From the NCBI GenBank assembly GCA_001769835.1, contig MEPR01000093.1:1-43653 (forward strand): a DNA stretch of 43,653 bases, given 5' to 3'. The notes under the pieces were generated by a model. It saw nothing but the letters and a program-made list of their open reading frames with translations. It ran no database searches and was not told the DNA's origin. Shown one piece after another: positions 2,346 to 43,653 of the stretch. Origin of the DNA: Bdellovibrionales bacterium GWB1_55_8 (GTDB taxonomy: Bacteria > Bdellovibrionota > UBA1018). Numbering within the stretch: the stretch's first letter is position 1; every line of letters begins with the position of its first letter. Both the position numbers and the translations under genes were made by a program.

Positions 2346-2375
2346 GATGCTTTTGCCCCTCTTTGCCTGCTTTTT

Positions 2376-3110: not shown

Positions 3111-3183
3111 ATCAGAGAGCCTCCCTGCTCCAGCTCTCTGATCGGCAGGAGGGGGCGGGTTCTCGATAGGCAATATTTTCCGT

Positions 3184-3948: not shown

Positions 3949-3990
3949 GTCTCATTAGTTTGACGCAGTGAGTTTTGAATTCAACAAAAT

Positions 3991-4019
3991 TTGACCGTTT
4001 AAAAAGAGCAGGTTAGAAC
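3991..4019 (+). promoter_or_regulatory. Candidate sigma-70 promoter for the START-like gene
   Basis: TTGACC at 3991-3996 and TAGAAC at 4014-4019 are separated by 17 bases, which would place transcription start near 4026 and a short leader with GGGGGGAAT before the ATG at 4052. Pattern match only; no conservation data. Confidence 0.35.
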
Positions 4020-4051
4020 TTTTCGGAGCTTTGAATTCCTGGGGGGGAATC

Positions 4052-28549: not shown

Positions 28550-29388
28550 GTCCCGAGAGAATTGCGTACTTGGGACGCGATATCCACGAGTGGCCGTGCA
28601 ACGTCTTTGCCCCAGTTGTTTTCGAGCCCGCGACAAACGTGTTCCAGTGCGGAATCAGCCAGCTCGCGCGCTTTTTCCTCCGGGAGATAAGACAGAATGG
28701 TCATGGGCCGCCCTTGGTCCTGCTCGGCATCGGCAAGATCGTCGGCTACCTGGAATGCAAAACCCAGCTCAAAGGCGAAATCGCGGATGGCCCGGCCTTT
28801 TTCAGAGGTCTCGCTGATACCGGCCAGATCCGCGGGAATCAGCAGAGCGGCGGTGAAAAGCGCCCCTGTCTTGCCTTCATGCATCCGTTTCAGATCGTGC
28901 AGTGTCGAGTCCGAATGAAGGAGCATTTCCGCGGCCTGCCCGCCAATCACGCCTCGGGGTCCGATGGCCCAGCAGAAACGCTGCAAGGCCCTGAGAAAGT
29001 TTTCGGGAGGCACTTCAGAGGCTGAGTCGGCCAGCACTTCCGTTGCCAGCGCCACGAGAGCATCGCCTGCCAGCAGGGCGAGTCCTTCGCCATGAACTCG
29101 ATGGTTTGATGGCCTGCCCCGGCGGAAATCGTCGTCATCCATGGAGGGAAGATCATCGTGAATCAAGGTGAAACAGTGAATCATCTCCAGCGCGAGTGCT
29201 GCAGGCATTGCGGCTTTCGAACTCAAGCCGACCATCTCGGCGCAAGCGAGTGTCAGTCTCGGTCTGACTCTTTTTCCGGGAGCGAGCAGAGAATAGCGGA
29301 TGGATTCGGCTAGATTCACTGGTGAGCCGCCATCACGGGCGAGTTTCGCTTCGAGTGCTGCCTGCAATGCTTCTTCTAGGTCGCTCAT
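28546..29388 (-). CDS. ispA: Polyprenyl (farnesyl/geranyl) diphosphate synthase
   Basis: Trans-type prenyl transferase that condenses isopentenyl and allylic diphosphates, likely to C15 for quinone and lipid-carrier synthesis. The 280-residue protein has the first aspartate-rich motif DDLPSMDDDDFRRGRP (D78, D79 onward; the short insertion between the Asp pair and the later Asp is typical of bacterial IspA), GKRVRPRL near residue 38-45, and the second motif DDLAD at 216-220. The product length (C15 or C20) cannot be told from sequence by eye. It overlaps gspN by ATGA and the ATP-grasp gene by ATGA, so it appears to belong to the secretion operon. Confidence 0.92.
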   Translation of the reverse strand: MSDLEEALQAALEAKLARDGGSPVNLAESIRYSLLAPGKRVRPRLTLACAEMVGLSSKAAMPAALALEMIHCFTLIHDDLPSMDDDDFRRGRPSNHRVHGEGLALLAGDALVALATEVLADSASEVPPENFLRALQRFCWAIGPRGVIGGQAAEMLLHSDSTLHDLKRMHEGKTGALFTAALLIPADLAGISETSEKGRAIRDFAFELGFAFQVADDLADAEQDQGRPMTILSYLPEEKARELADSALEHVCRGLENNWGKDVARPLVDIASQVRNSLGT

Positions 29389-30398
29389 GGTGCCACCGGA
29401 GTTGGAGTGGGTGAATACGCGGGACCTTTCAGCAGAAAAGAATAACTTCCGTCCGGCTGTTTCCCTGCCGCCAGCATGGCTTCCACCAGAGCGAATGACC
29501 GCAAGACAGCAGGGGAGAAGCTGAAGCGTGTCTTGAGATCAAGCGTGCTACCCAGCGGATCGGGGGCCAGGGTGATCTGTCCCGTGAATGTCACACGGAT
29601 ATCATCCGGAGGGGAGGCGCCTTCACGGCCAAAACGGAATTCCTGGATACGGAGTTTACCCTTCTCGATGACGACATCAGCGATGGCATCGGAAATGCCG
29701 ATTTTGGGAATGGCAAAACCCATGATGTTTTGCTGGGCGATGACGATTTTTTTGAGAACAATATTCGCTTTTCCGCTGATTGAAGCGGGAGTTCCGAAAT
29801 CGCCGGAGATCTCGCCGGACCCCGACAATATGCCCTCCGCCGCGACAGGAGTGAATGCACCCGGGATGCCGAGCTGTTTCAGGTCCATGTCTTTCGAGTC
29901 AAATGACGCGCTGACTTGTGAGCCGCGCATGGAGATGGAACCCGTGATTTTTCCCGAGCCTGCTTCCATCCAGAAGCGGCCACCACGCCGGCCAAAAAGC
30001 ATTGGGAGCAGAGAGGGCGAAACGCCGAGTCTCTCCAGCCGGATCGGGGTTGCAGGCGCCGGGGGCCTGAGGGTCACCTTTTCAAGCTCATATGAAACGC
30101 CAAGTCCAATCGAAAGGCGGCTTTTTTCGGCCGTGAATGAGAATCCCTGATCCGCGAGCATCGATGTAAGGTAACCCTGGATCGTATTCTTCAGCCGGTC
30201 CTCCGGCAGTTTGAGGAGTGTGAAAAAGATGAGAAAGAAGAAAGCGAGCGAAATCCAGCCGACTCTCTTCAGGACGCGTTCGAAGCGAGTTGGGGGACGG
30301 CGTGTTTCGAGAGTCTGGGTTGAAGAGTCGGGATAGTCCTCGATCGGCTGGATCTCATCGTCAGGGCTCATGGGGCCTGTATTCACGTTCACTGGCAT
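29385..30398 (-). CDS. gspN: Type II secretion system protein GspN
   Basis: The 337-residue protein has a cytoplasmic N-terminal region of about 45 residues, one transmembrane segment (near 50-68, LAFFFLIFFTLLKLP), and a large periplasmic beta-rich part with repeated AsmA/GspN-like strands (FSFTAEKSRLSIGLGVSYELEKV, SASFDSKDMDLKQL, GSGEISGDFG). GspN is not needed in every type II system; its role is not settled. The start is either the ATG at 30398, where AAAGGA directly touches the codon, or the GTG two codons later, which has better spacing. It follows gspM after 11 bp and overlaps ispA by ATGA. The C-terminal end is proline/threonine-rich. Confidence 0.85.
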   Translation of the reverse strand: MPVNVNTGPMSPDDEIQPIEDYPDSSTQTLETRRPPTRFERVLKRVGWISLAFFFLIFFTLLKLPEDRLKNTIQGYLTSMLADQGFSFTAEKSRLSIGLGVSYELEKVTLRPPAPATPIRLERLGVSPSLLPMLFGRRGGRFWMEAGSGKITGSISMRGSQVSASFDSKDMDLKQLGIPGAFTPVAAEGILSGSGEISGDFGTPASISGKANIVLKKIVIAQQNIMGFAIPKIGISDAIADVVIEKGKLRIQEFRFGREGASPPDDIRVTFTGQITLAPDPLGSTLDLKTRFSFSPAVLRSFALVEAMLAAGKQPDGSYSFLLKGPAYSPTPTPVAP

Positions 30399-30409
30399 TC
30401 CTTTCGTAA

Positions 30410-31042
30410 CTATTTCGAAGCGACTGAGAAAGCGGATACCGCGACCTTGGCGTCCAGGTATCCGGAAAGGTTCTTCTCGGCCTCGATTCCCATGTGTCGT
30501 ATTTTGACGGGTCTGGTCCCGTTCTCAAGTTGATACGCGTAGCGGACGAGCTGCCGCACGTTCAGGCGCTTGATGGAGACCTCGAAGAGGGCTTCTTTGA
30601 CAGCCACGTCTTCCTTATCACGTCCTGCGGCCGGCGGTTTTCCCGGTTTTTCCGCAGAGACAGTCACCTTGGCTGGATCAATTCCCGCGCTGGTCGCGGC
30701 GCTTTGGAGATATTCCGGCCACGGGCCGGCCGCGGATGGCGCACTGATGCCGCGGTTCGCGTCCCTCAGAAGTCGAAGTTCGTCATTGGCCGAGGAGATC
30801 AAGGTCAGAAGGTCTGACTTCGTCGTATACTCTTTCTTGATGCGATATACATGCACAACGGATCCGAGCACGAGCCCGATGACGAGTAGCAGGGAAGCGG
30901 CAAGGCTGCCAAGCTTCAGGTAAAGTCGGCTTTGCGTGTCGAGTTCATCCCATTTGCCTCGGAGTTCCTGAAACCATTGCTGTTCGGCGAGTGATTCGCC
31001 GATGCTGTCCATCCATTGTCTGAAACGCGATTTATTTTCCAC
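30410..31042 (-). CDS. gspM: Type II secretion system protein GspM-like
   Basis: GspM is an inner-membrane assembly-platform protein that pairs with GspL. The start chosen is GTG at 31040-31042, which has GGAGG six bases upstream and overlaps the gspL stop by 11 bp. The 210-residue product has a cytoplasmic N-terminal part, one transmembrane segment (around residue 45-68, LAASLLLVIGLVLGSVVHVY), then a periplasmic coiled coil and a compact domain (LFEVSIKRLNVRQLVRYAYQL). GspM/PilO sequences are poorly conserved, so the call rests on topology and position between gspL and gspN. It has a charged cytoplasmic segment with several tryptophans before the membrane span. Confidence 0.8.
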   Translation of the reverse strand: MENKSRFRQWMDSIGESLAEQQWFQELRGKWDELDTQSRLYLKLGSLAASLLLVIGLVLGSVVHVYRIKKEYTTKSDLLTLISSANDELRLLRDANRGISAPSAAGPWPEYLQSAATSAGIDPAKVTVSAEKPGKPPAAGRDKEDVAVKEALFEVSIKRLNVRQLVRYAYQLENGTRPVKIRHMGIEAEKNLSGYLDAKVAVSAFSVASK

Positions 31043-32729
31043 CTTTGGCCTCCGCATTCGCACTCGAGCGTGCGTCGGTTTCCCCGTCCGGCAGTTTTCC
31101 CGAGAAGCTGATCTGCCATTTCTTCAAGCCGTCTTGGCCCGGGACTTCTTCCACTTTTCCCTTTTCCAGGCCCGATATTCGTCCGCTCAGCAGGGAGGTG
31201 ATTTTTTCCGCCATCTGAGGATTGGAGACTAGTAATGTCAGTCGAACGGTCCGCTCGCTGGAAGGCGAGTAGGGTTCACTGGGGGACGCACCAACCTGGA
31301 CTTCAGTAACATCCACCACCACGTCCTTGGGAATGGCGCTCGAGAAATCCTTCAGGATTTCAAGAGGAGAGCCAGGATCCCGTGATACCAGCGAATTGAG
31401 CTGTCGCTGCTGCTCAAGTTCCGTGCTTACGGCTGATCGAAGGGTGCTGGTGCTGGCGATGTAAGTGCGCACGGCGCTGTCGGAAATCTGGCCGAAGAAC
31501 GACTGGATGTTTCGTTTGAGTTGCCGATCGGCGTCCGCCAGTTTTGATTTGTAGACCTGGCTTTGTATGGCCAAACTGAGGAACAAGCTCGCCAGAACGG
31601 CACCTGCCGATGTCAGGACCCAGCGGAAGTTCTGCAGCCTGAAACCCTGAGCGCGCGCCTCTTTTGAAAATTCGCCTTTTCGAAAATTGATCGCTGATGT
31701 TCTTTCCTGCCCGACCATGCAAAGCGCAAGTCCCATCGGCAGCGCGAAACTTGCTTCGGTGGCTTCGGAATAGGTGACCCCGGAAACGGAAGTTGCGCTC
31801 ATCCCATGAAGCGGTCTGACTGCGATGCCGAGGCTTTCCTGGATGTGAGCGGATAGACCCGGAAGCAACGAGGTTCCTCCCGCAAGAAAAATGGTCTCAG
31901 GCGGATCTTTTGTGACGTTTTTACATGTCAGCACCGCTTGATGAAGGTCGCGTATCAGAATTCGAAGAGGCTCGATCAGAGTGTCCGAGAATTCAGTCTG
32001 CTCAGGCGTGACGTTCTGCTTCTGGGCTGTAGGAAGAACGAATCCATCGATTTTCGCCTTTTCCGCTTCGTCGTAGGGAATGCCATATTTTTTCGCGATC
32101 GCGAGCGTTAAGTCGCGTCCGCCCCAGTCCATTTCACGGGCCAGCGCCGGTGCGCCTTGCCAGTGTATGTATGCAGTGGTTCGGCTCTGACCGATCTGGG
32201 CAAGCAGGACGGGCGAGACGCCAGCCTCCTGCTGCGGAACGACTTTGTTCAGCAGCGTCCGGTACGCCCAGGCTTCGGTCGTGAGCAGATCCGGGTCAAT
32301 CCCGCAGCGGTTCCAGAACGCGATCCAGGAAGCCACGGCGGACTTCAACGAGACAGCTACGTGTACGACGCTTCCCTGCTTGCTCTGACCAAGCATGCTA
32401 TAATCGTGGAACGAGCGCTCCATCGGGAACGGAAGTTCATCCTCCAGTTCGAAGCCGACAGCGGCCTGTATCGCTTTTTTCCCTCGGGTGGGTATGCGGA
32501 GATTGCGGAACGTGACGGTTCCCGGTTTTGCCGCGACGGCTATCTTGTCAGGTTTTCGTGGAAGCGACTCTATGAGTCGCCTCACGGCGGACTCCGGATC
32601 GGGCTGGCCGTCAGAACCTATCCCGATCGGCTGCTCATAGTAATCGTGGATCTCGAATCTTCCGAAGGAGCTTTCCAGCTCCACGGCCTTCACGCTTTTT
32701 GCTCCGAGATCGATGCCCAGGATTCGCAT
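31032..32729 (-). CDS. gspL: Type II secretion system protein GspL (PilM-PilN-like fusion)
   Basis: GspL links the GspE ATPase to the membrane platform. The 565-residue protein starts with an actin-like PilM fold: MRILGIDLGAKSVKAVELE at residues 1-19, and IFLAGGTSLLPGLSAHI around 280-296. One transmembrane segment lies near 370-395, followed by a PilN-like periplasmic region with a coiled coil and a compact ferredoxin-like fold. Classical GspL of gammaproteobacteria is about 400 residues with a reduced cytoplasmic domain; this form keeps the full actin-like fold. The ATG has GAGAGG eight bases upstream. It begins 12 bp after gspK ends and overlaps gspM by 11 bp. Confidence 0.88.
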   Translation of the reverse strand: MRILGIDLGAKSVKAVELESSFGRFEIHDYYEQPIGIGSDGQPDPESAVRRLIESLPRKPDKIAVAAKPGTVTFRNLRIPTRGKKAIQAAVGFELEDELPFPMERSFHDYSMLGQSKQGSVVHVAVSLKSAVASWIAFWNRCGIDPDLLTTEAWAYRTLLNKVVPQQEAGVSPVLLAQIGQSRTTAYIHWQGAPALAREMDWGGRDLTLAIAKKYGIPYDEAEKAKIDGFVLPTAQKQNVTPEQTEFSDTLIEPLRILIRDLHQAVLTCKNVTKDPPETIFLAGGTSLLPGLSAHIQESLGIAVRPLHGMSATSVSGVTYSEATEASFALPMGLALCMVGQERTSAINFRKGEFSKEARAQGFRLQNFRWVLTSAGAVLASLFLSLAIQSQVYKSKLADADRQLKRNIQSFFGQISDSAVRTYIASTSTLRSAVSTELEQQRQLNSLVSRDPGSPLEILKDFSSAIPKDVVVDVTEVQVGASPSEPYSPSSERTVRLTLLVSNPQMAEKITSLLSGRISGLEKGKVEEVPGQDGLKKWQISFSGKLPDGETDARSSANAEAKGGK

Positions 32730-32741
32730 GTATTCGCCTCT

Positions 32742-34064
32742 CTATAAAATTCTCATGAAAGTGACGTTCAAGCCAGCATCAGCTTTCTTTTTTGGTGTTC
32801 CTGCCGCAGGAATTCCGAGTTCGGGTTCAGGCAATCCGACCTCACGGGCGGGGTCTTTTTTCGCCGAGGTCCCGAGCGTGATCCACGCCTCAATGAGGCG
32901 CGTGGACTGGTTCACCTTCGCCTGCACCGTGATCTTGAAGTTGCTTTCGTCGACGACTATGCGGATGTTCCTGCGAGCTAGCTGCTCTTTGACCTGTGTG
33001 ATCGAATCGGCGCCAGCAAGGCGGGAAACGCTCTGGCTGATGTATTTGAAGAATTCATCCTCAGACTTGAAGAGGTGGTCTTCCTCCTCGGAATCGCGGT
33101 ATTTGAAGAACTCATCGACCTCTTCCTGGGTCATTTCCGGGAAGAGCGCCTGTAACACAAAGGGATTCATCGTGTTCACGTTGACTCCAGGCGTCGGACT
33201 GACGGTGAGAGTGGGAGCCAGCACGTCGTAGAGCGCGTCATCCAGTGGCTGAATCATCCGGAGTTCCGAAACGCTGTAGAAGGGAGCCCGCTTGTCGGCA
33301 ATTGCTTCGTTTTCCTGTCCCGTCCTCTGATAAGTGCGATCCACCCAAGCCAGCAGGTTGTCCATGAAGTCGTCCATCCGAAAGTCCCGATATTCGCTTG
33401 CAAAGTCCGGATCAGCCTCAAACTTCTGCTGGAGCACTTGTTTGAGGTAATCTTCCAGGCTTTGCCGAGCCTCTTCCGGATTGAAGGTCGGAGCAGGGCT
33501 CGGGCTCGCACCAGGGGAGGGCGGGGGCGGTGGTTCTCCCTTTCCTGCTCCGGTTTTCGCTGTTTTCCCCTGCGGAACGTAAGGAGCAAGCACCAGATTC
33601 AGATTGAATTTGCCGGACTCAGATGTGATGGCCGAGGTGAAGGTTCCTTCCAGCCCCGAGGCTTTCTGGAACGCGGTGATTTGGTCTTTTTCAATCATGG
33701 ACAGACCGGGAATGTCGGCCGGGATCGGAAAGATGACGGGAAAACTCCAGAGTTTGTCGAGAAGCGCCTTGGGAACCATGGGCGCTCCGCCGCCCGATTT
33801 TCCGCCACCTGAGAGGTCTTTCAAAGTCTGGTAAACCTTCAATCGGAGCAGCGATAGCTTGAACCCGCTCTTGGCGAGGTAATGAGCTTTCACCTGATCC
33901 ATGGAATCAAATGCGATTTTCTGGTTCACCTGAGCGACATACGTGAACTCGGTGACCAGAATTGATAGCACGCTCATGGCCGCTATCACCAGCATGAGTG
34001 CGATTCCGGCCTCTTTTTTCGGCTGCGGCTGCGGTTTGGTCTCAGGTGCTGGGGTCGATTCCAT
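32742..34064 (-). CDS. gspK: Type II secretion minor pseudopilin GspK
   Basis: GspK caps the pseudopilus tip with GspI and GspJ. The 440-residue product has a 20-residue leader ending KKEAG, then IALMLVIAAMSVLSILVTEF; position +5 is leucine rather than glutamate, as is usual for GspK. The large globular part carries a proline-rich linker (GEPPPPPSPGASPSPAPTF, around residue 182-200) and the conserved ADPD-, NLLAWVD and PLDDALYDVLAPTLTVSP segments, with GVNVNTMNPFVLQALFP after it. It is longer than E. coli GspK (about 330) through that linker and a C-terminal extension rich in Pro, Ala and Lys. The ATG overlaps gspJ by 23 bp. Confidence 0.9.
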   Translation of the reverse strand: MESTPAPETKPQPQPKKEAGIALMLVIAAMSVLSILVTEFTYVAQVNQKIAFDSMDQVKAHYLAKSGFKLSLLRLKVYQTLKDLSGGGKSGGGAPMVPKALLDKLWSFPVIFPIPADIPGLSMIEKDQITAFQKASGLEGTFTSAITSESGKFNLNLVLAPYVPQGKTAKTGAGKGEPPPPPSPGASPSPAPTFNPEEARQSLEDYLKQVLQQKFEADPDFASEYRDFRMDDFMDNLLAWVDRTYQRTGQENEAIADKRAPFYSVSELRMIQPLDDALYDVLAPTLTVSPTPGVNVNTMNPFVLQALFPEMTQEEVDEFFKYRDSEEEDHLFKSEDEFFKYISQSVSRLAGADSITQVKEQLARRNIRIVVDESNFKITVQAKVNQSTRLIEAWITLGTSAKKDPAREVGLPEPELGIPAAGTPKKKADAGLNVTFMRIL

Positions 34065-34854
34065 TCAGCGGGATCTCCGGTCTAAACTCAAAATTGCCAT
34101 TAAAAGAAAGGTTGGACGGTCCAAATGCCTCGAATTGCACCCGAATGATATCGGGGTAGAGACCCTTGAATTCATCTTTTTCCGTATCCCAGGATTTTTC
34201 CCAGCGTTCTTTGTCCTTTCTGTAATAAGCGAACTGCAGCGATTTCAGTCCATAGAGTAGCGGATAGGACTGCTGCATCTTGTCCCTGTCATCTTCCGTG
34301 TACACATTCGGGCTTTCGGTTTTGACGAGTACATAGGAATCACCGTCCTCCTCACGCTCGCTTTTCTGAAGTTCGTAATTGATTTTGGCGAGCTCGGACT
34401 CAGGCGCATCCTGGTAGACCCGAAGGTGCGAAGAGGAGATGAAACTCATTTTGCCTTCAGCGCCCACGAATCGCGAGGGACGAAGTCCTGTTGAATCAGT
34501 CGCCGCGCCCCAATAACGCGTGGCTTCTCCCAGGCCCGGATCCTGCGCCACGACTTGCTGGAACTCCGCCTCCGAGTTGCCGGAACCCTTCGTTGCTTTC
34601 GGGGCCGCCATCAGAAGCGGGGAGTAAATCATGGAGATGTCCCGTTGGACGATGTTCATGGAGAGTCGGATCGCATTATTGAAATCGCCTTCATCCCCGA
34701 GGACCACGCGAAGCTTATAGCTTTCAACGACCGCCTGGTAGATAGCGAAGCTGATGAAAACCAGGATCGCCATGGCAATGAGGACCTCGAGAAGGGTAAA
34801 TCCCGCTCGATCGCATGCGGAAGGTGAGTGCTTAGAGCGATAGTTGAAAATCAC
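34042..34854 (-). CDS. gspJ: Type II secretion minor pseudopilin GspJ
   Basis: A tip pseudopilin. The 270-residue product starts at GTG (34854) within the end of gspI. It has an 18-residue leader ending in glycine (ACDRAG), then FTLLEVLIAMAILVFISFAIY with glutamate at +5, the substrate of the prepilin peptidase, which cleaves and methylates. The soluble part is beta-rich with YWGAATDSTGLRPSRFVG and LPILYGL-like segments. GGTGG lies nine bases upstream of the GTG. Overlap with gspI and gspK, both 23 bp, implies coupled translation. Confidence 0.88.
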   Translation of the reverse strand: MIFNYRSKHSPSACDRAGFTLLEVLIAMAILVFISFAIYQAVVESYKLRVVLGDEGDFNNAIRLSMNIVQRDISMIYSPLLMAAPKATKGSGNSEAEFQQVVAQDPGLGEATRYWGAATDSTGLRPSRFVGAEGKMSFISSSHLRVYQDAPESELAKINYELQKSEREEDGDSYVLVKTESPNVYTEDDRDKMQQSYPLLYGLKSLQFAYYRKDKERWEKSWDTEKDEFKGLYPDIIRVQFEAFGPSNLSFNGNFEFRPEIPLNGIDPST

Positions 34855-35347
34855 GATTCAGGTCCACCCAATATGTCGATACCGAGAAGTGCTGCTCGCC
34901 CGTCCCCTTTTTCCAGAAAACCGTGACTGTGGCTTCTCGAACCGCCTTGGAAAGATGGTTTGTCACGAGTTTGGTCATTTGCGAGGCGGTGTCGGATGAA
35001 GCGGAGTCATCTCCACCTCCGCTTTCCTCTTTGTTTCCTCCGGAGCTCAGATTGAGGTTCGGGAATTCTATTTCCTTGATTTCGGTTTCCCAGCGGTAAT
35101 CCTCGTAGGGGCTCTTGAACTGCCCGGCATCCTTCTTCTTGAATTCGTCAAATGTTTTACCTTCAAACTCATGTTCGTATTCGATCATCCGGTTTTTCGC
35201 GAGCATCGCGACTACGTTCATCTGGCGTGCGCGGTCCGAAGCGTTGATGCTTGCCGACTGGACAGAGAGTATCGCGGTAAAAGCGACCAGCATGATGGCC
35301 ATCGCTATGAGAGTCTCGAGCAGCGTGAAGCCGGATTCATTTTTCAT
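34832..35347 (-). CDS. gspI: Type II secretion minor pseudopilin GspI
   Basis: The start chosen is the ATG at 35345-35347, with GGAGG six bases upstream and an 11 bp overlap with gspH; an earlier in-frame start is less likely. The 171-residue product has the short leader MKNESG, then FTLLETLIAMAIMLVAFTAIL with glutamate at +5. GspI begins assembly of the pseudopilus tip. The soluble part has RARQMNVVAMLAKNRMIEYE, the conserved helix, and a flexible Gly/Ser/Asp linker (GGNKEESGGGDDSASSD) that is unusual in GspI, which is typically about 125 residues. Confidence 0.88.
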   Translation of the reverse strand: MKNESGFTLLETLIAMAIMLVAFTAILSVQSASINASDRARQMNVVAMLAKNRMIEYEHEFEGKTFDEFKKKDAGQFKSPYEDYRWETEIKEIEFPNLNLSSGGNKEESGGGDDSASSDTASQMTKLVTNHLSKAVREATVTVFWKKGTGEQHFSVSTYWVDLNRDFQLSL

Positions 35348-35936
35348 TGAACGCCTCCTCACGCGGGATCTGTCGTTCATAAACGTCGGTGCGGCCCAGA
35401 ACCGGCGAGATTACGAGTGAAAGGTGGTGCTCGGAGTCATCCTTCAGATGAACGAGCGTGCGTTCGGAAATTCCATGAGGAAAAAAATGAGAGTAAGCGA
35501 GACCTTCGGAGATCGGTTCCTTGAACCTTTGCGTGACGATGTCCTCGAACTCAACGCCGCGAGGGAGGTTCTGTTTTTTTCGTGTGACGGATTTCTGCAT
35601 TTTGAAGGGAGAAGGCGGCGGACCTTCCTCTTTTGAGGTTTTGGTCCGCCGCGAATCACGTTCTCTGGACTCCTGGGTCTCAAGTACGGCCGTAGGGGGT
35701 CCTGCTTCGACCCAGTACTGATGCTCTTTCAGGTCGTAGACCACCCGGTGAACGTTCCCGGTGATCACGGCTGAGTTATAGGCTTCCTTGATCGTTTCAG
35801 CCATTTCCCTCGCGGTCGAGTTCAGGGAAAGCTTGAAATAGCTCGTGATCGTGGGCATTGCCGTGGCCGTGATCAGACCGATTATGGCGACAACCACCAG
35901 GAGCTCGATCAGAGTGAAGCCGCGGGTTCCCTTCAT
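35337..35936 (-). CDS. gspH: Type II secretion minor pseudopilin GspH
   Basis: Minor pseudopilin joining the tip complex to the GspG shaft. The 199-residue product has the short leader MKGTRG, then FTLIELLVVVAIIGLITATA with glutamate at +5. The soluble part has RVVYDLKEHQYWVE, and near residue 80-120 a basic insert (RERDSRRTKTSKEEG, MQKSVTRKKQ) that common GspH proteins lack. It overlaps gspG by ATGA and gspI by 11 bp. Confidence 0.87.
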   Translation of the reverse strand: MKGTRGFTLIELLVVVAIIGLITATAMPTITSYFKLSLNSTAREMAETIKEAYNSAVITGNVHRVVYDLKEHQYWVEAGPPTAVLETQESRERDSRRTKTSKEEGPPPSPFKMQKSVTRKKQNLPRGVEFEDIVTQRFKEPISEGLAYSHFFPHGISERTLVHLKDDSEHHLSLVISPVLGRTDVYERQIPREEAFNEK

Positions 35937-36409
35937 TGGTCGTCAGAGGAGATATCCGAAGCACTTCCGGTGCCGCCTTCGGCTGCGTCCTGGCCGAGAG
36001 ACTTGATCGTGTATTTCGCTCCATCCGAGACATAAAGAAATTCGTTACCCCAGGCATCGACCGGCACTTTCTTGCTGCTCAGGAAACCTTCCGGGTCATA
36101 ATTCTTGCATTCGCGGCCAGAAGGAGCTCTGACGAGAGCGTCGAGCCCCTGGTCTGTGGTGGGATAGAAACCGCAGACGCGACGGAAGTCCTGCAGGGTC
36201 ACACCGAGTTGCTTGATCTGGATCTTGGTCGAATCCACTCGGGATTCCTCGAATTTGCCCATGATGTTTGATCCCACGATGCCCATGATAAGACCGATGA
36301 TCGCAACCACAATCATCATTTCAATGAGGGTGAAACCGGAATCATTTGAGCTTACCGGGCTCAGTGCCCTGGGATATTTCGCATAGATACGGTTCAGGAT
36401 GTTTTTCAT
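35933..36409 (-). CDS. gspG: Type II secretion major pseudopilin GspG
   Basis: The main subunit of the pseudopilus that acts as a piston for secretion. The 158-residue precursor has an unusually long 25-residue leader ending SNDSG, then FTLIEMMIVVAIIGLIMGIV with glutamate at +5. The soluble part has the family's YPTTDQGLDALV, LSSKKVPVDAWGNEFLYVS, and the C-terminal EGGTGSASDISSDDQ, which corresponds to the calcium-binding loop of GspG. AAGGAG lies just upstream of the ATG. It follows gspF after 24 bp and overlaps gspH by ATGA. Confidence 0.95.
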   Translation of the reverse strand: MKNILNRIYAKYPRALSPVSSNDSGFTLIEMMIVVAIIGLIMGIVGSNIMGKFEESRVDSTKIQIKQLGVTLQDFRRVCGFYPTTDQGLDALVRAPSGRECKNYDPEGFLSSKKVPVDAWGNEFLYVSDGAKYTIKSLGQDAAEGGTGSASDISSDDQ

Positions 36410-36433: not shown

Positions 36434-37657
36434 TTAACGTTGGGCGACGTTGTTGATTTGTAACAAAGGCATGAATACCGAGAACACGATGAAACCAACG
36501 ACACCCCCCATGCCGACGATCATCAGGGGCTCGAGCAGCGCGGTCATTGATTCGACTTTCGAGCTGACCTGTTCCTCGTAGGTCGTGGCGATGTTCTTTA
36601 ACATGTCCGGCAGTTCACCGGTTTTCTCTCCGATCGCGATCATGTGGATCACCAGGGGAGGGAACTCCCCGCAACGACGGAGGGGATCCGCAATCGATTG
36701 GCCTTCCGTGATGTTTTCCCTCGCTGTGGCAATGGCATTGGCGATTGGAACACTGTCGACGAGGTTCCGGGCGATGTTCATGCTGGTGAGGATAGGAACG
36801 CCGCTGCTCAGCAGAGTAGCCATCGTGCTGGCGAAACGGGTCACAGCGATCATGCGTATCAATGGGCCGAAGATCGGGGCGCGCAGTTTGAATCCGTCCC
36901 AGCGTGCCCTGCCTTTCGTGGTCGCGATATAGCGCCGGAACATCCAGAATCCGAGGACAGCGGAACCAAGAATCGCAGGCCACCAGGTGACTGTAAAATC
37001 GCTGATATCCGCCAGTACGCGCGTCGTGAACGGCATGGGCTTGTTCATGGATTCGAAAATTCCGATGAGTTTCGGAATGACGAAAGTGAAAATCGCCATC
37101 AACAGCCCGATCGCGACAACCATCATGAGCATCGGGTATGTCATGCCGCTGATGATTTTGCCGCGAAGCCGCATTTGGGCTTCTTTCAGGTCAGCAAGTT
37201 TCAGCAGGACAAGACCCAGGGTGCCGGAACTTTCACCCGCTTCGATCATGTTCACGAAAATCGAATCGAAGATACGCGGATGGGCGCTGCAGGCTTTCGC
37301 CAACGATGACCCTTCGTTCACGTCCTGGCGTACCTGTGAAAGAACGACCTTGAGGCGTTCGTTTTCAGTCTGCTCGACCAGTGCGTTGAGTGCCTCGACG
37401 AGGGGGATGTTCGCCTTCACGAGACTTGCGAGCTGCCGGGTCATGAGCGAGAGCTCGCGTACGCTGACTCGTCCTCCGAAAAACGGCACGGACGCCGAGC
37501 TGTGGGGGCGAGCAGCGGTTTTTTCCACGATCTCGGTGACGACGAGACCGCGCTTCTTCAACTTCAGTCTGGCCGCCTTCTGAGTTTCGGCTTCAATGAT
37601 CCCTTTTTGCTGCTTTCCGTCAGGCGCAAAAGCCTTGAAGTCATAAATCGGAGGCAT
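36434..37657 (-). CDS. gspF: Type II secretion inner-membrane platform protein GspF
   Basis: Polytopic core of the inner-membrane platform. The 407-residue protein has the usual N-terminal YDFKAFAPDGKQQKGIIEAE segment, two homologous cytoplasmic helical domains of about 120 residues, and transmembrane segments near residues 175-200, 225-245 and 375-398. The conserved MIEAGESSGTLGLVLLKLAD and MIAIGEKTGELPDMLKNIA signatures end the two helical domains. Length matches E. coli GspF (about 400). GGAGG lies 11 bases upstream of the ATG. It follows gspE after 6 bp. Confidence 0.95.
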   Translation of the reverse strand: MPPIYDFKAFAPDGKQQKGIIEAETQKAARLKLKKRGLVVTEIVEKTAARPHSSASVPFFGGRVSVRELSLMTRQLASLVKANIPLVEALNALVEQTENERLKVVLSQVRQDVNEGSSLAKACSAHPRIFDSIFVNMIEAGESSGTLGLVLLKLADLKEAQMRLRGKIISGMTYPMLMMVVAIGLLMAIFTFVIPKLIGIFESMNKPMPFTTRVLADISDFTVTWWPAILGSAVLGFWMFRRYIATTKGRARWDGFKLRAPIFGPLIRMIAVTRFASTMATLLSSGVPILTSMNIARNLVDSVPIANAIATARENITEGQSIADPLRRCGEFPPLVIHMIAIGEKTGELPDMLKNIATTYEEQVSSKVESMTALLEPLMIVGMGGVVGFIVFSVFMPLLQINNVAQR

Positions 37658-37663
37658 ATTACT

Positions 37664-39409
37664 TTATACCTCCGCGTGGGTGGCTCGCATCAGCTCATCC
37701 ACGGTAGTCGCGCCCGACAGCACTTTCGCAACGCCGTCCTCGCGCAGGGTGATCATTCCGCGTTCCACGGCCGCCCTCTTGATCGTTCCGGAATCCGCGT
37801 TTTTCACGATCAGGCTGCGGATGTCGTCGTCGACGACCATGAGTTCGTGAATCACGGTACGACCGGAGTAGCCGGTCTGGGAGCAGGCTGGGCAGCCCAC
37901 TGCGCGATAAAGCGTCACTCCGGCTGGCAGACGCGATAACCCGAGTTCTTGAAGCTCAAAGGCGCTTGGATCATGAGGTTCCCGACATTTCGAACAGACT
38001 TTCCGGATCAGGCGCTGAGCGACGATTCCGAGCAGGGAGCTTGCCACGAGGAACGGTTCAACCCCCATGTCGATCAGTCGGGTTGCCGCACCCGAGGAGT
38101 CATTCGTATGCAACGTCGAGAGCACAAGGTGGCCGGTGAGGGAGGCGTTGATAGCGATTTCGGCCGTTTCCTTGTCTCGGATTTCGCCGACCATGATGAT
38201 GTCGGGGTTCTGACGAAGGAAGGCGCGGAGAGCGCGCGCGAAGGTGAGTTCAATTTTGGCGTTCACCTGAACCTGGTTGATCCCGGGAATCTGGTACTCG
38301 ATCGGATCCTCTACCGTAAGGATGTTTCTTTCCGGGCTGTTCAGCTTCACCAGGCAGGCGGAAAGCGTCGTCGATTTACCGCTGCCGGTGGGACCGGTGA
38401 CGAGAATGATTCCGTATTTGCGGAAGATGAGTTTCTCGATCAGACGTGCGCTTTTCTCCGAGAACCCGAGCTGCTCGAGTTCGAGCACCGTTCCGGTCTG
38501 TTCAAGAATACGCATAACCAGACGTTCACCGAAAATGGTGGGAACAGTGGAAAGACGAATGTCGATGTCCTTGCCGGCGATCTTGATTTTGATGCGGCCG
38601 TCCTGAGGAAGGCGCTTCTCGGCGATATCGAGGGTACCCATGACCTTGATGCGGGACGAGATGGCGGCGTGGGCGCGTTTCGGCTGCCGGATGATATCGT
38701 AAAGAACGCCATCAACGCGGAAGCGGACAACGAATTCCTTTTCGAAAGGTTCGATATGAATGTCGGAGGCCTTTTCCTTCACTGCGCGGAAGATGAGCGA
38801 GTTGACGAACTTGATAACGGGGGCGTCATCTTCGGTCGCCTCGAGAATGTCGATCGGTCCTTCAAGTTCGAGGTCATAATTGTCGTTGAATTCACCTTCG
38901 ATCTTCTCGACCAGATTCGTGGTGCTGCGCTCGTAGACACGGTTGATCGCTTCCTGAATCCGCAGGCTGGTGCTCGCCACCAGACGGATCGGCAAGCCTG
39001 TGAGTGCACGTAAATCGTCAGCAACCGAATCGTTGAAGGGATCGGCCACAGCCACTACGAGGGTCTCGCCCCTTTCGGTCATTTCACGTTGAAGCGGTAT
39101 AGCTTCCTTCATTTTCGCATAGTTGATCGGAATGTCAGAGACGAGCTTGGGATCGATCTCATGTGACTTGATGTCATCGAGATAGGTGATCCCGATCTGA
39201 ATGCAGAGCGCACGAAGGATCTCGTGGGAAGGGATCATGTTCTTCCGAACAAGGATATCACCCAGCAGACCCCCGTCGGATTTCTGCAGCTTGAGCGCTT
39301 CCTCGAGTTGCGCGGGTGAAAGCGAGGTATGCCGCAGCAGAATCTCGCCGATCTTAGGCAGATGTTCAGCAGTGCTGAGGTGTTCGATTTTGTCTGTACG
39401 GTCGTTCAT
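37664..39409 (-). CDS. gspE: Type II secretion ATPase GspE
   Basis: The hexameric ATPase that drives pseudopilus assembly. The 581-residue protein has an N1E/PilB-type N-terminal domain (KIGEILLRHTSLSPAQLEEA), the N2E domain, and the ATPase core with Walker A GPTGSGKST at about residue 335, the Asp box, DPIEYQ, Walker B IIMVGEIRD, and the histidine-box TGHLVLSTLHTNDS. Near residue 475-520 a CSKC ... CPAC pair forms the zinc-binding module typical of GspE. It overlaps gspD by ATGA. Length is slightly above the usual 500. Confidence 0.96.
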   Translation of the reverse strand: MNDRTDKIEHLSTAEHLPKIGEILLRHTSLSPAQLEEALKLQKSDGGLLGDILVRKNMIPSHEILRALCIQIGITYLDDIKSHEIDPKLVSDIPINYAKMKEAIPLQREMTERGETLVVAVADPFNDSVADDLRALTGLPIRLVASTSLRIQEAINRVYERSTTNLVEKIEGEFNDNYDLELEGPIDILEATEDDAPVIKFVNSLIFRAVKEKASDIHIEPFEKEFVVRFRVDGVLYDIIRQPKRAHAAISSRIKVMGTLDIAEKRLPQDGRIKIKIAGKDIDIRLSTVPTIFGERLVMRILEQTGTVLELEQLGFSEKSARLIEKLIFRKYGIILVTGPTGSGKSTTLSACLVKLNSPERNILTVEDPIEYQIPGINQVQVNAKIELTFARALRAFLRQNPDIIMVGEIRDKETAEIAINASLTGHLVLSTLHTNDSSGAATRLIDMGVEPFLVASSLLGIVAQRLIRKVCSKCREPHDPSAFELQELGLSRLPAGVTLYRAVGCPACSQTGYSGRTVIHELMVVDDDIRSLIVKNADSGTIKRAAVERGMITLREDGVAKVLSGATTVDELMRATHAEV

Positions 39410-42039
39410 TCGTTAACTGGGCCTCCGCCCGCTTCGAAGTCGGGGATGGGCGGCGGCGGCACGTCCTCCATTATAGGCGGTGGCGCCGAATCCTCCGGGC
39501 TCGCTGGAACCGGCTCTCCCGGCTGTGAAGCCGGTGGTTTCGTATCCTCGGATTCCGACGGTCCCGATCCAACGCTTACGGCCGCCGGTTCGTCCTCGTT
39601 CAAAGTCACGGAGCGTTCTGTCTTCCAGGCCTTGAACTGGGTAACGTCCGGTAGCGCGCGAATGATCTCGTCGCGTTGCTTGCGCTGGGGGTCTCTGCCG
39701 CCCGCATTCTGTTCGAGGAAGTCGTCGCGTTCCTGCAGTTTCTTGTCGAGAATCGCGCGAACTTTTTCGTACTGGCGCACAATATGGGGCGTCAAAAATA
39801 TTAGCAAGTTGGTTTTTTCGGTACTCTGGTTCTTGGCTCTGAATAACCAGCCGAGCAGGGGAATATCTCCGAGAATCGGTATTTTCGATACTGTATCGCT
39901 CTGCTTGTCGCGGATCAGGCCGCCGATGACCACCGTGTCAGAGTCTCCGACAACGACCGTGGTTTGCGCGCTGCGCTCGATCGTGGCGAGCGCGAGGCCG
40001 GCCACTTGTGCCGGTAGTTCCCGGTTGCTGAAGTCCGCGAGCTTCGCCTGCACGTCGAGTTTCACGAAGTTTGAAATCTTGTTGATCTGCGGCTTGATCT
40101 TGATGGATAGCGAGACGGATTCGCGGTCGATGCCCGTTGCAATGCCGGCCCCTTGAACCGCGGTGACCTTCGGTACCGGAATTTTTTCGGACGACTCGAA
40201 CGTCGCTTCGGTGTTGTCGAGCGCTATGATTTGCGGAGTAGCAATGACGTTTGCATTCGTGTTGGTCTGCAGCGTCTTGATCAATGACTGGACGTTCGGC
40301 ACATTGAATTTGGTCGTTCCGATCAGCACCTCTGTTGTGGCTTTCGTTCCGAATCCCAGGATTGCGCCCTTCTGTGACAGCGGGCTCTGGATGAAATCCA
40401 GAAGATCCGTGTTCGGGGAGAAGGCGATGCCGTTTTTAGGGTTCACGACGTTCGTCGAGAACTGGAACGTGCGTCCAAGGGATACTTCCATGATGACCAC
40501 TTCGACGTATACCTCATCGCGCGGGATATCCAGGCGGTTCACCACGCGTTGCACCGTCACGAAGTCAGCGGGAGATGCCGTCACGACCAGTGAGTTGGTG
40601 GCTTTGTCCGCGGAGATCTTGATCGAACCCTCGAAAAGCGAAGCGGAAACCGGGTTCACGCCCGTGCCGCCCGTTCCGGCGGGAGTGAGCGGGCGAAACC
40701 CGCCGCTGGTCTGCTGTGAAAGATTATTCAATGTAGTGGCAATCTGCTCGGAGTCGGCGAACTGAAGATAAATGACGTGAACTTTTCCGCCACCTTGTAC
40801 AGCGGGGACTTTCTGATCGAGCTTCGCCACAAGTTCGCGGACCTGGTCGGCGCCTCTGGTATTGGCATGCACGATAAGGGTATTCGTTCGGTCATCAGCG
40901 ATGATGGTGTTGATGATTCCGCCTTCTTTCGTGCGCCTTGCGCTGAACCGCGAGGCCGCTCCGAAGCGTGGAACCCCCCCGGCAGTCGGACCTTTGGCTC
41001 CCGTTCCGGGAATGAGGGTATCAATGAGCTTGGAAAGCTCCGCAGCTGAGGCGAACTTCACGGGGATGACCTCGATGCCGGCTTCGAATCCTTCCACATC
41101 CAGGATGTCGAGCATCCGCTGAAGCTTATTGATGTTGGAGCCGGTGTCGGTAACGATGACTGTATTGGTTTGTTCGTAGGGGATGATGCGGGAATTGGCC
41201 GGCATGAAGCTCCGGAATGTACGCGCGACTTCCTGGGAGTCGATGTACTTCAGCTGGAAAACACGCGTGATCAGCGTATCCGTATCGGGTGCTGAGTCGC
41301 CGGTGAACGTCTTGAGCTGCTTGTCACGAGCATCGCGCTGGCGCGCGATCCGGATGTATTTCCCGGAAGGGATGAGCGCGAACCCGTTGATGTCCAGTGC
41401 TGTAAGGAAGGCTCTCCATGCGTCACCCACGGTGATCGCGGAATTCGAAATGATCGTGATTCGGCCTTTGACATCCTTGTCCAGGATGAAGTTCTTGCCC
41501 GTGAGTTTTCCCAGTGTCTTCGCGATGTCCATGATATCGGCATCCGGGAAGTTGAAATCGGTGACCACTTCCTTGCTGCCCGAACCGGTTTCCGTGTTGA
41601 TGTCGATCGAGGGACTCTCGTTGCCGCTGATCACGTTTCCAGGCGTGCCACCGCCCATGGAAATTCCCTTGTTGGTACGCTGTGGTTCGGGAGCATTTCC
41701 TGTGTTTCCGCCGGGGCGGGGAGAAGTATTTGAACCGCGCTGAACCGGAGCCGATCTCGGCGCTGCCGCATCCGGATATTCAAACTCTTCCTCTTCGTCC
41801 TCGTCAAAGAAGTCGTCCTCGTTTGCTCCGGCGCCGCTATCAGAATCAGCGAAGGGATTGGTGAACGTTCTCGGGCCCGGCTTGAAGCCATCGCGCGCAG
41901 CTGGGGGCTGCGCCCAGACGCTCTGGGTCATCAGAGCGATCAGTACCACGATACCGATCAGGCCTGTAAGGGTTGCTGTGATTTCCAGCCACTCCAGCCA
42001 GGACGTTTCTTTTTCGGTGTCGATTCCTAATTTGTTCAT
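39406..42039 (-). CDS. gspD: Type II secretion outer-membrane secretin GspD
   Basis: Forms the outer-membrane channel. The start chosen is the ATG at 42037-42039 with GGAGA upstream; a GTG further upstream is less likely. The 877-residue product has a long n-region and hydrophobic signal segment (residues 20-42). A strongly acidic low-complexity stretch (NEDDFFDEDEEEEFEY) follows near residue 70-88, then the N0 domain (TDFNFPDADIMDIAKTLGKL), repeated N1-N3 domains (VFQLKYIDSQEVARTF, VIPVKFASAAELSKLID, VIYLQFADSEQIATTL), and the secretin core with VPILGDIPLLGWLF. The C-terminal tail is proline-rich (PPPIPDFEAGG). Common GspD is about 650-750 residues; the extra is the acidic linker, tail and loops. 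Confidence 0.95.
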   Translation of the reverse strand: MNKLGIDTEKETSWLEWLEITATLTGLIGIVVLIALMTQSVWAQPPAARDGFKPGPRTFTNPFADSDSGAGANEDDFFDEDEEEEFEYPDAAAPRSAPVQRGSNTSPRPGGNTGNAPEPQRTNKGISMGGGTPGNVISGNESPSIDINTETGSGSKEVVTDFNFPDADIMDIAKTLGKLTGKNFILDKDVKGRITIISNSAITVGDAWRAFLTALDINGFALIPSGKYIRIARQRDARDKQLKTFTGDSAPDTDTLITRVFQLKYIDSQEVARTFRSFMPANSRIIPYEQTNTVIVTDTGSNINKLQRMLDILDVEGFEAGIEVIPVKFASAAELSKLIDTLIPGTGAKGPTAGGVPRFGAASRFSARRTKEGGIINTIIADDRTNTLIVHANTRGADQVRELVAKLDQKVPAVQGGGKVHVIYLQFADSEQIATTLNNLSQQTSGGFRPLTPAGTGGTGVNPVSASLFEGSIKISADKATNSLVVTASPADFVTVQRVVNRLDIPRDEVYVEVVIMEVSLGRTFQFSTNVVNPKNGIAFSPNTDLLDFIQSPLSQKGAILGFGTKATTEVLIGTTKFNVPNVQSLIKTLQTNTNANVIATPQIIALDNTEATFESSEKIPVPKVTAVQGAGIATGIDRESVSLSIKIKPQINKISNFVKLDVQAKLADFSNRELPAQVAGLALATIERSAQTTVVVGDSDTVVIGGLIRDKQSDTVSKIPILGDIPLLGWLFRAKNQSTEKTNLLIFLTPHIVRQYEKVRAILDKKLQERDDFLEQNAGGRDPQRKQRDEIIRALPDVTQFKAWKTERSVTLNEDEPAAVSVGSGPSESEDTKPPASQPGEPVPASPEDSAPPPIMEDVPPPPIPDFEAGGGPVNE

Positions 42040-42062
42040 CTCTGTCTCCACATCTCTCTGAA

Positions 42063-43139
42063 TCACCGTGTCACGTCAAAATTCATGTTTACGGGGCGCC
42101 CATCTCTTTTGATCTGCAATTCAATATGGCTTGCTCCGCCTTTCAGATCGTTCAAGGCCGAAAACGCTTTTCCTGGATCGTTCACAGGTTCGCCATTCAA
42201 TCCGACAATGATGTCGTTGTTCTGAAGTCCGAGCTTCGAGTAGATGCTCCCTGGGACGATTTGAAACAGTTTGTAACCGGCAGGCAGGCCGTTTTCGAAA
42301 TGGGGTACAGCGCGCGCCTGTGTCAGGATGCTGTTCAGGTCCGAAAGAGCGGTATCCACTTCCTGGCGTGAAATGTTGAATTGGGTCGGTGATACCTTTT
42401 CGATACCTGGTCCCCCGGCTGAGGGTTTCCCGAGGGTGATTCGCGGAGCGTTTCCCTTGAGCTCGGGCAGTTCAATGTATTCGCGTCGACCCGAGGAGAT
42501 GTTCAGGAACGTGACTCGTTCCGGCTCGATTTGAAGAATTTTTGCTTTCGAAGGGATTTCATCCTGCACCTGGACCGGGTAGACGATGGATGCTGATTTG
42601 TCTTCGATGGTGGCGATGGAGCGCAATTCATTCTTCAGGATCAGGGTTCCCACCAGATTGAAGGGCAGAGTGCTCTTCGTCGCGGGTCCACCAAAATCCT
42701 GAGCCACTGTCGTGGCGTCTTCTTCGCCGGGGATCAATCCTTGGCTGTTGAAAAGGTTTCTTGAGATAATCGCCTGGTATTCCTCGAGCGGCGGTTTTTT
42801 GGCGGTCGGTCCCGAGCGGCGCGCGATTCGCGGAGCTGGCGGCTCCGGAATATACCCTCCTGCGACAAGCGCAATCACGTCCGCTAGGAAGTAGGTGCAA
42901 AGAATGATCGTAACGAGCTTTCCATAGAAACTCGCGCCTTGTTTCTGGAAATTCCGGTTCAACCAGTCAGCGGTCCTGGAGGGGTCGAACTGAGCCAGGC
43001 GCTCTCTCAGATTTCGCCATTGTGCGCCGGCATCCAGCCTCGGTTCGCGTGGAGCCCGGCGAAAGCGATCGCGAAGAATCGACAGGGGCGCCCATTTTTT
43101 TTTGGGTTCTGCAGGTGGTGTTGGTTCTTCTTCGGACAT
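42063..43139 (-). CDS. gspC: Type II secretion system protein GspC
   Basis: Connects the inner-membrane platform to the secretin. The start chosen is the ATG at 43137-43139 (AGGA about ten bases upstream); a TTG seven codons earlier is less likely. The 358-residue product has a long basic cytoplasmic N-terminal region, one transmembrane segment near residue 80-100 (LVTIILCTYFLADVIALVAG), a periplasmic HR domain (YQAIISRNLFNSQG ... LPFNLVGTLI) and a C-terminal PDZ domain (FQIVPGSIYSKLGLQNNDII, LNGEPVNDPGKAFSAL) that may contact secreted proteins. It is the first gene of the operon; gspD follows after 23 bp. Confidence 0.93.
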   Translation of the reverse strand: MSEEEPTPPAEPKKKWAPLSILRDRFRRAPREPRLDAGAQWRNLRERLAQFDPSRTADWLNRNFQKQGASFYGKLVTIILCTYFLADVIALVAGGYIPEPPAPRIARRSGPTAKKPPLEEYQAIISRNLFNSQGLIPGEEDATTVAQDFGGPATKSTLPFNLVGTLILKNELRSIATIEDKSASIVYPVQVQDEIPSKAKILQIEPERVTFLNISSGRREYIELPELKGNAPRITLGKPSAGGPGIEKVSPTQFNISRQEVDTALSDLNSILTQARAVPHFENGLPAGYKLFQIVPGSIYSKLGLQNNDIIVGLNGEPVNDPGKAFSALNDLKGGASHIELQIKRDGRPVNMNFDVTR

Positions 43140-43156
43140 ATCCAGCGTCCTATGAC

Positions 43157-43171
43157 GCAAGAGCGGTGCCA
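43157..43171 (-). promoter_or_regulatory. Sigma-54-like promoter sequence before gspC
   Basis: On the minus strand TGGCAC-N5-TTGC has the GG and GC pairs exactly 10 bases apart, as in -24/-12 promoters. Predicted transcription start is near 43145, only about 6 bases before the gspC ATG at 43139, which is too close for the AGGA ribosome site to be on the message. So it may be chance, or the message is almost leaderless. Confidence 0.4.
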
Positions 43172-43300
43172 GGGTGCGATAGAAAAATTTCCCGACCAGT
43201 GAGTACGGGTGTTTTCAATAAAACTGAATCATGTTCGCTTTGCGTTCGTTTGGGGAAAGCGTACACTGAGCTAGTATTCACGCCGATGCCGCATTGCGTT

Positions 43301-43313
43301 TGACAAATTGTCC
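43301..43313. promoter_or_regulatory. Palindromic operator copy 1
   Basis: TGACAAATTGTCC contains the perfect palindrome GACAA-A-TTGTC. It also overlaps TTGACA (43300-43305), a good -35 box. It lies exactly 40 bp before the second copy in the gap between gspC and the acyl-CoA dehydrogenase gene. Confidence 0.55.
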
Positions 43314-43340
43314 GAAACTATTTTTTTCAGTGGTTTTGGC

Positions 43341-43353
43341 TGACAAATTGTCA
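43341..43353. promoter_or_regulatory. Palindromic operator copy 2
   Basis: TGACAAATTGTCA is palindromic over 6+1+6 bases and shares 12 of 13 bases with the copy at 43301-43313. Size and symmetry suit a dimeric repressor such as a TetR-family regulator. It lies 57 bases before the acyl-CoA dehydrogenase start. Confidence 0.6.
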
Positions 43354-43409
43354 GTCGAATCGGGTTTTGCTCGGCGGAGTTGCGACCTCAACACCTCAGG
43401 AGAATGACA

Positions 43410-43653
43410 ATGCCCGCAGGCACTCAAAACAGTTTCATGAAATCGCTGTTTTTCGGTCAGATTCGCGAAGATCTGATTTTCCCTTATCCTCGTCTGTCCA
43501 GCGAGGTTTCCGAGTCCGTTCGCATGGTGCTCGATTCGCTCGACAAATTCGCGAAGGAGCACGTCAAGCAAGCGGAATGGGATCAGAAGGGCGAGATGCC
43601 TCGTGAGATCGTGAGCCAGTTTGCCGAAATGGGCATGCTAGGGATCGCGGTGC
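43410..43653 (+). CDS. Acyl-CoA dehydrogenase, N-terminal part (runs off right edge)
   Basis: The ATG at 43410 has AGGAG seven bases upstream; an ATG two codons earlier is too close to that site. The 81 visible codons read MPAGTQNSFMKSLFFGQI, then DLIFPYPRLSSEVSESVRMV and FAEMGMLGIAV. This is the N-terminal helical domain of acyl-CoA dehydrogenases, closest in feel to very-long-chain or FadE-like types, which begin with a SF-KSLF-G-I segment and IFPYP. The enzyme would oxidise fatty acyl-CoA in beta-oxidation with FAD. The catalytic region is outside the window. Twin palindromes upstream suggest control by a dedicated repressor. Confidence 0.8.
   Translation, partial: MPAGTQNSFMKSLFFGQIREDLIFPYPRLSSEVSESVRMVLDSLDKFAKEHVKQAEWDQKGEMPREIVSQFAEMGMLGIAV

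Follow-up and report, generated by a model that had tools for sequence, protein, structure and literature searches.

The two near-identical palindromes between gspC and acd very probably form an upstream activating sequence (UAS), that is, an enhancer, from which an NtrC-family response regulator, most likely the one encoded at locus L343, would drive the gsp operon for type II secretion via sigma-54. The sites, the match to a sigma-54 promoter, their conservation, the co-occurrence with a regulator and the domains of this regulator were all obtained by computation.

The palindrome pair and a predicted gsp promoter

The window, that is the whole stretch of 43,653 nucleotides analysed here, is contig C93 of its assembly (G000, in the following the source genome). 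The 12-mer TGACAAATTGTC occurs at positions 43301 and 43341 of the window, 40 bp apart from start to start, and these are the only two exact copies in the whole 3.78-Mb assembly (96 contigs, 96% complete). The pair is located between gspC (minus strand, ATG at 43139) and acd (plus strand, ATG at 43410). Defined by sequence and conservation, site 1 is the gspC-proximal palindrome TGACAAATTGTCC (43301..43313) and site 2 the acd-proximal palindrome TGACAAATTGTCA (43341..43353). Site 2 is a perfect 13-bp palindrome, TGACAA-A-TTGTCA, which extends to 15 bp when the flanking C/G is counted, and the palindrome of site 1 is perfect across GACAAATTGTC. The first-pass annotation had described two near-identical palindromes with 40 bp between them. 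The pair is confirmed, but 40 bp is the start-to-start or centre-to-centre distance and the 13-mers themselves are separated by 27 bp. The same annotation noted a TTGACA box. It does overlap site 1 (43300-43305), but no -10 box is seen 16-18 bp downstream, and a consensus scan found no sigma-70 promoter on this strand.

Overlooked in the first pass was a sigma-54 promoter on the strand opposite to the TTGACA, at 43156..43171 (minus strand). This predicted promoter of gspC, TGGCACCGCTCTTGCG (GG-N10-GC), is a near-consensus -24/-12 element (consensus TGGCAC/TTGC) at a distance of 129 bp from site 1; it is assigned by consensus match and conservation. The genes behind it are all encoded on the minus strand. 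The type II secretion operon starts with gspC (42063..43139), whose Pfam T2SSC score of 25.2 bits is slightly below the cut-off of 27, so that the assignment also uses the gene order; gspC matches were found in 89 of 97 genomes. Then come the secretin gene gspD (39406..42066; Pfam Secretin and GspD N0), gspE for an ATPase with an MshEN domain (37664..39409; T2SSE and MshEN), gspF (36434..37657; T2SSF), gspG for the major pseudopilin (35933..36409; T2SSG) and gspH/I/J/K/L-like genes (31032..35936), identified by N_methyl in three proteins, T2SSJ and PilM_2 as well as by sub-cut-off matches to T2SSK and T2SSL. Two more genes (29385..31063) are gspM/N-like by position in the gene order only, and the 337-aa protein of these two has no Pfam hit. 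The MshEN domain carried by GspE belongs to a family known to bind cyclic di-GMP, according to an excerpt of PMC5013675.

In the window the leader predicted for gspC has about 6 nt only, which speaks against the enhancer reading; the gsp mRNA would be nearly leaderless. By eye, the ATG of gspC is found 17-18 nt past the -12 TTGC in the window and in two other genomes (L005 in G006, L148 in G031), which gives leaders of 6-7 nt.

We compared the gspC upstream regions of 52 genomes from families f1-f8, the source genome included. A sigma-54 promoter was accepted at a score of at least 9 of 11 and a palindrome when at least 7/8 of the core GACA-N3-TGTC matched. With these thresholds 51 of the 52 genomes have the promoter on the gspC strand, compared with 4 that show one on the other strand and 5.1 on average in shuffles; raising the score to 9.5 gives 50, 2 and 1.2. 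Palindromes are found upstream of gspC in 50 genomes (shuffle mean 11.8), and the perfect 8/8 core in 49 (shuffle mean 0.6). G013 has neither the promoter nor a palindrome before gspC. G048 has no palindrome, but its contig begins 117 bp before the gspC match. As the first-pass annotation had supposed, the sites are probably bound by a protein, judging from their conservation upstream of gspC in 50 of 52 genomes. All 50 palindrome-bearing genomes have at least one palindrome upstream of the promoter, the nearer site being 40-187 bp away, and in a few genomes further palindromes are found downstream of the promoter, for example an 8/8 one in G020. As far as can be judged from sequence, the arrangement is the one expected of an NtrC-type enhancer with its promoter.

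In the 400 bp preceding the promoter, palindrome pairs are present in 46 of the 52 genomes, 7 of these pairs including a 7/8 site; four genomes have a single site only, and G048 is cut by the contig edge. The spacing within the pairs is 40 bp in 14 genomes, 41 bp in 6, 42 bp in 6, 43 bp in 2, 51 bp in 3 and 52 bp in 2; spacings of 61, 30, 33 and 21 bp occur in one genome each and 13 bp in nine genomes, all of family f5. Leaving aside the 13-bp pairs, the spacings follow a period of about 10.3 bp (R=0.83, n=37). Because related genomes are not independent, we also applied the phasing test to the distinct spacing values alone (R=0.80, n=10, p ~0.002). Out of helical phase are the abutting 13-bp pairs (9 of the 46, family f5) and the one 33-bp pair. 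The proposal that bound dimers would sit on the same face of the DNA is therefore narrowed: same-face binding is likely in most lineages, where the spacings are phased, but not in all, as the 13-bp and 33-bp pairs show.

We infer that activation proceeds as follows. In response to a phosphorylation signal, dimers of the phosphorylated regulator would bind to the two TGACA-N3-TGTCA sites, which are about four helical turns apart, and would oligomerise on one face of the DNA. DNA looping could then bring the bound dimers to the RNA polymerase-sigma-54 at the -24/-12 promoter (43156-43171, minus strand). This would finally switch on the whole type II secretion operon, from gspC-D-E-F-G onwards.

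The same arrangement was sought in 33 further, more distant genomes of the phylum, Bdellovibrionota, for which up to 1.5 kb upstream of the gspC match was read. Seven of them have a sigma-54 promoter at threshold near gspC (G059, G061, G063, G067, G074, G081 and G087), and a palindrome lies upstream of all seven promoters, at 8/8 in G061 and G063 and at 7/8 in five f10 genomes, a level which shuffles reach in about one fifth of the regions. The five f10 palindromes all have a TGCCA half-site, and the distance from palindrome to promoter in f10 is 104-105 bp in 6 of 6 genomes, including G093 with its sub-threshold promoter (8.5). Among the 26 sub-threshold genomes a perfect core within 700 bp occurs in G075 alone; 7/8 matches, to which the same shuffle rate applies, are found in G093, G066, G068, G070 and G079.

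A candidate regulator

The source genome encodes about 20 sigma-54 activators, and sigma-54 itself (PF04552) is present in all 8 genomes tested, the source genome included. From the sequence comparisons, the best candidate for the regulator of the sites is the kinase/response-regulator pair at locus L343 on contig C92, which belongs to the group termed L190. The candidate histidine kinase (1550-3577) was recognised by Pfam and the adjacent response regulator (3570-4961) by Pfam and its GAFTGA motif; the latter combines a receiver domain, an AAA+ sigma-54 interaction domain with GAFTGA and a Fis-type HTH. The group was selected from 20 activators of the source genome (L185 was left out) using G013 as the one negative genome, and was then checked on others. 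By reciprocal best hits against six site-bearing genomes and G013, L190 is the only group present in 6 of 6 and absent from G013. Searched over 97 genomes, a profile of the HTH tail of L190 scores 55-109 bits for orthologues and no more than 47 bits for all other sequences.

We then tabulated the 85 genomes whose gspC upstream region was read, a few of these regions being short and kinship being ignored. Regulator and promoter are both present in 57, the regulator only in 3, the promoter only in 1 and neither in 24; L190 orthologues are found in 57 of 58 promoter-bearing genomes versus 3 of 27 without the promoter. The regulator without promoter is seen in G069, G075 and G093, and the promoter without L190 orthologue in G063. 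Two of these genomes count against the model: G063 combines promoter and palindrome, and G069 keeps the orthologue while neither a promoter nor a palindrome is near gspC. Counted by family the four classes comprise 10, 2, 1 and 7 (p=0.005). For the control group L184 the numbers in the same order are 56, 13, 2 and 14, and by family 11, 4, 0 and 5 (p=0.008), and the family-level phi is 0.70 for L190 versus 0.64 for L184. Co-occurrence alone favours L190 over L184 only modestly.

It might then be that the UAS and the sigma-54 promoter are correctly recognised and that another NtrC-family activator, for example from the L184 or the L199/L200 groups, binds to the sites. The near equality of the family-level co-occurrence is in line with this, as are the absence of L184 from G013, the presence of sites without an L190 candidate in G063 and the sheer number of activators in the source genome, about 20, with L185 outside the comparison. 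We nevertheless regard another activator as unlikely, since L184 is present in f13, f15, f18 and f20, whose gspC regions read lack UAS and promoter, the L199/L200 group was not found in G057, and L190 is the group that is found near gspC (G061 and G075).

We prefer L190 because, beyond the co-occurrence, its orthologues form a single clade and are linked to gspC in two distant families. The clade has 16 members among 104 activator sequences, a support of 0.993, and takes in the sequences of G061, G067, G069 and G075. The kinase-regulator pair is situated 1.4 kb upstream of gspC in G061 and 4.4 kb upstream, with other genes between, in G075. Against the pairing, the candidate is not near gspC in most genomes: in the source genome it is on another contig, and the distance is about 31 kb in G015 and 148 kb in G067.

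Two further NtrC-like loci were seen. L202 (contig C85 of the source genome, 1069-1941) encodes a degenerate NtrC-like protein of 290 aa without GAFTGA, with relatives in G009, G017, G031 and G038; in G031 the sequence TGACAAGTTGTCA occurs 43 bp upstream of the relative. The L202 protein is possibly a sigma-54-independent relative or an antagonist. In G017 (L119, contig C59) a site at 9137-9149, TGACACATTGTCA, lies 146 bp upstream of another kinase/NtrC-like pair. We rejected this site as a link to the regulator; the pair is without a clear orthologue in the source genome (best 42%) and the site is probably there by chance.

The neighbouring acd gene

The window ends within acd (43410..43653, plus strand; Pfam Acyl-CoA_dh_N), the 5' part of an acyl-CoA dehydrogenase gene cut by the contig end; its start codon ATG at 43410 is preceded by AGGAG at 43398-43402. 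The conservation upstream of acd orthologues that the first-pass annotation had called for does exist. A TGACA-N3-TGTCA-like palindrome is found upstream of acd in 30 of 30 loci (the best 30 matches, the source genome included), with 35-152 bp between the start of the nearest site and the acd match. Of the 52 genomes, 35 carry acd no more than 2.5 kb from gspC; in the other 17 it was not found at that range, with a contig edge preventing a verdict in G030 and G048. All 35 genomes of the first class keep the sites, and so do 15 of the 17 of the second (missing in G013, unreadable in G048); in G005, G010, G017 and G023 they precede gspC although acd is not beside it. Five f15 genomes (G064, G071, G078, G091 and G096) have acd beside gspC and, within 1.5 kb upstream of the gspC match, neither a sigma-54 promoter nor a palindrome of at least 7/8. 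From these comparisons the sites go with the sigma-54 promoter of gspC, not with acd. The acd gene shows no sigma-54 promoter of its own and is probably a bystander; a bound regulator could affect it, although the model does not need this.

By eye, a CarD-like gene and cysS follow acd in most of the gspC/acd neighbourhoods viewed (L122-L140), and where acd is missing the CarD-like gene and cysS are divergent from gspC.

One UAS could also serve both genes, activating gspC via sigma-54 and repressing or tuning acd when occupied. The frequent proximity of the two genes (35 of 52 genomes within 2.5 kb) would suit such a double function, and several of the near sites are just 35-60 bp from the acd match and could overlap its core promoter. 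However, sigma-54 promoters on the acd strand are not beyond chance (4 of 52 versus a shuffle mean of 5.1) and the distance from site to acd varies widely, which makes the double function improbable in our judgement.

The first-pass annotation had suggested acd as the target and the palindromes as operators, perhaps of a TetR-type, acyl-CoA-responsive repressor, the dimers of which would bind cooperatively at the acd promoter and repress fatty-acid oxidation. The closeness of the sites to acd, with the nearest one starting 35-152 bp before the match in 30 of 30 loci, would suit such operators. We consider this reading very improbable, however, as the sites are kept in 15 of 17 relatives without acd beside gspC but are absent over 1.5 kb from all five f15 genomes that do have it there, and as the source genome has no other exact copy. 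It would also leave the sigma-54 promoter on the gspC side unexplained; only the enhancer model explains this promoter. The candidate regulator is an NtrC-family activator and not a TetR repressor. No further exact copy, as expected before fad or acd genes, exists in the source genome either, and weaker matches are about as frequent as in the control. With up to 2 mismatches the 13-mer matches 17 times forward and 15 times in reverse (control: 16 and 11), and GACA-N3-TGTC occurs at 34 places (control 34), so that only the pair stands out. We viewed the genes at two of the weaker matches and neither is a lipid gene; C73:1089 is inside a long open frame, taken by eye as trehalose-phosphate synthase, and C30:47363 is ahead of a signal-peptide protein. 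A TetR-like ORF was not seen by eye in the frames of the window, and among 10 acd neighbourhoods viewed one was noticed (L131), about 7 kb off and not beside acd.

The match at C30:47363 (L010, 1501-1589) consists of a 7/8 site, TGACGATTTGTCA, with a sigma-54-like box, CGGCACGCGCCTTGCT, 60 bp further on. The box precedes a signal-peptide, proline-rich protein. This is a possible second target, which is not conserved: among 58 genomes only G003 has a clear relative of the protein, and the 3.4 kb around this relative contain no 7/8 site. A sigma-54 promoter that fits the consensus fully (11/11) is found at L011 (contig C73, minus strand, about 364-379); it precedes by 52 bp a signal-peptide protein consisting of Lys/Gln/Ala repeats.

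In the window, five twelve-mers are repeated at 12-100 bp, two of them overlapping, and by eye this one alone has a palindromic core; the 6 window matches at 2 mismatches are not above shuffles (13 of 100 reach 6). A chance pair, or a selfish repeat which happens to carry a palindrome, like the dispersed and mostly paired repeat of G025 that includes TGACAAAATGTCA, can nonetheless be dismissed, since the source genome has just two exact copies, the site position is kept across families although flanks and spacing differ, and chance is ruled out by the conservation upstream of gspC, with the GACA-N3-TGTC core at 8/8 in 49 of 52 regions versus a shuffle mean of 0.6. The G025 repeat (L102-L107, L110) occurs mostly as pairs of about 52-bp period, CGACTCAG..CCTGACAAAATGTCAGG..CTGAGTCG, and holds 14 of the 17 TGACA-N3-TGTCA copies of that genome; it looks mobile or structural.

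Divergence in G075 and known systems

In G075 gspC is without a sigma-54 promoter, yet TGACAAAATGTCA is retained. The L190-group regulator of this genome is missing the stretch with GAFTGA. GAFTGA or GAFSGA is found in 15 of the 17 distinct L190-group frames kept by the filter (from 35 loci), and the second frame without it, L304, is a 149-aa fragment. The gene rpoN is present in G075 and in G013. These sequences, from one draft genome, would fit a co-evolution of regulator and promoter.

The LuxO motif is TTGCA-N3-TGCAA. According to an excerpt of PMC11407668, LuxO-type activators usually bind with their HTH to a pair of cooperative sites some 100 bp ahead of the sigma-54 site; this is alike, whereas their function is quorum sensing. 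For Desulfovibrio, the main text of PMC4641369 describes a catalogue of NtrC-class enhancer/sigma-54 units, in which the UAS is usually near the -24/-12 promoter and most activators have one to four target operons; one such unit of D. vulgaris serves a type III secretion system. The UAS near the -24/-12 promoter is common to both cases, while here type II secretion is targeted, in a different phylum. The strings TGACA, TGTCA and GACA are absent from that main text (text only, without motif logos or supplements). LipQ/LipR of Pseudomonas alcaligenes is, as described in PMC12134079, likewise a two-component system of the NtrC family with sigma-54 and a UAS and controls a secreted enzyme; it governs a lipase gene and not the operon of a secretion apparatus. 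The NtrC of Caulobacter lacks GAFTGA like the G075 orthologue and is described in an extract of PMC12421884 as acting at sigma-70 promoters; it is best known for nitrogen control, whereas the target in G075 would be the gsp operon. Finally, the main text of PMC12316311 reports that type II secretion gene families are enriched behind sigma-54 promoters, predicted predominantly in Myxococcia; the word 'bdellovibrio' is absent from it. Within open-licence PMC we found no paper with the motif strings and none on sigma-54 control of gsp in Bdellovibrio and relatives. Thus enhancer-sigma-54 units as such are already well known (main text of PMC4641369), and it is their description for gsp in this group that was not found in open-licence PMC.

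Our results correct a plausible first reading, in which a site between divergent genes was credited to the wrong gene. The site, the promoter and the candidate regulator are defined and can be tested in E. coli, and about 50 gspC regions with sites allow the study of the evolution of enhancer spacing and recognition. More tentatively, and as a possibility that we hold to be less probable than not being so, the type II secretion operon might in a wide part of the phylum be switched on and off by a single kinase-activator pair dedicated to it, acting via a sigma-54 enhancer. In the G075 lineage the regulator may then have lost the sigma-54 contact loop and the only conserved target found may have lost its -24/-12 promoter, which would turn the enhancer switch into an ordinary operator-based one with the DNA site unchanged. 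If true, G075 would be a natural sigma-factor exchange inside a regulator-target pair. The group is known for predatory bacteria, and the palindromes point to a control switch of protein secretion in this group.
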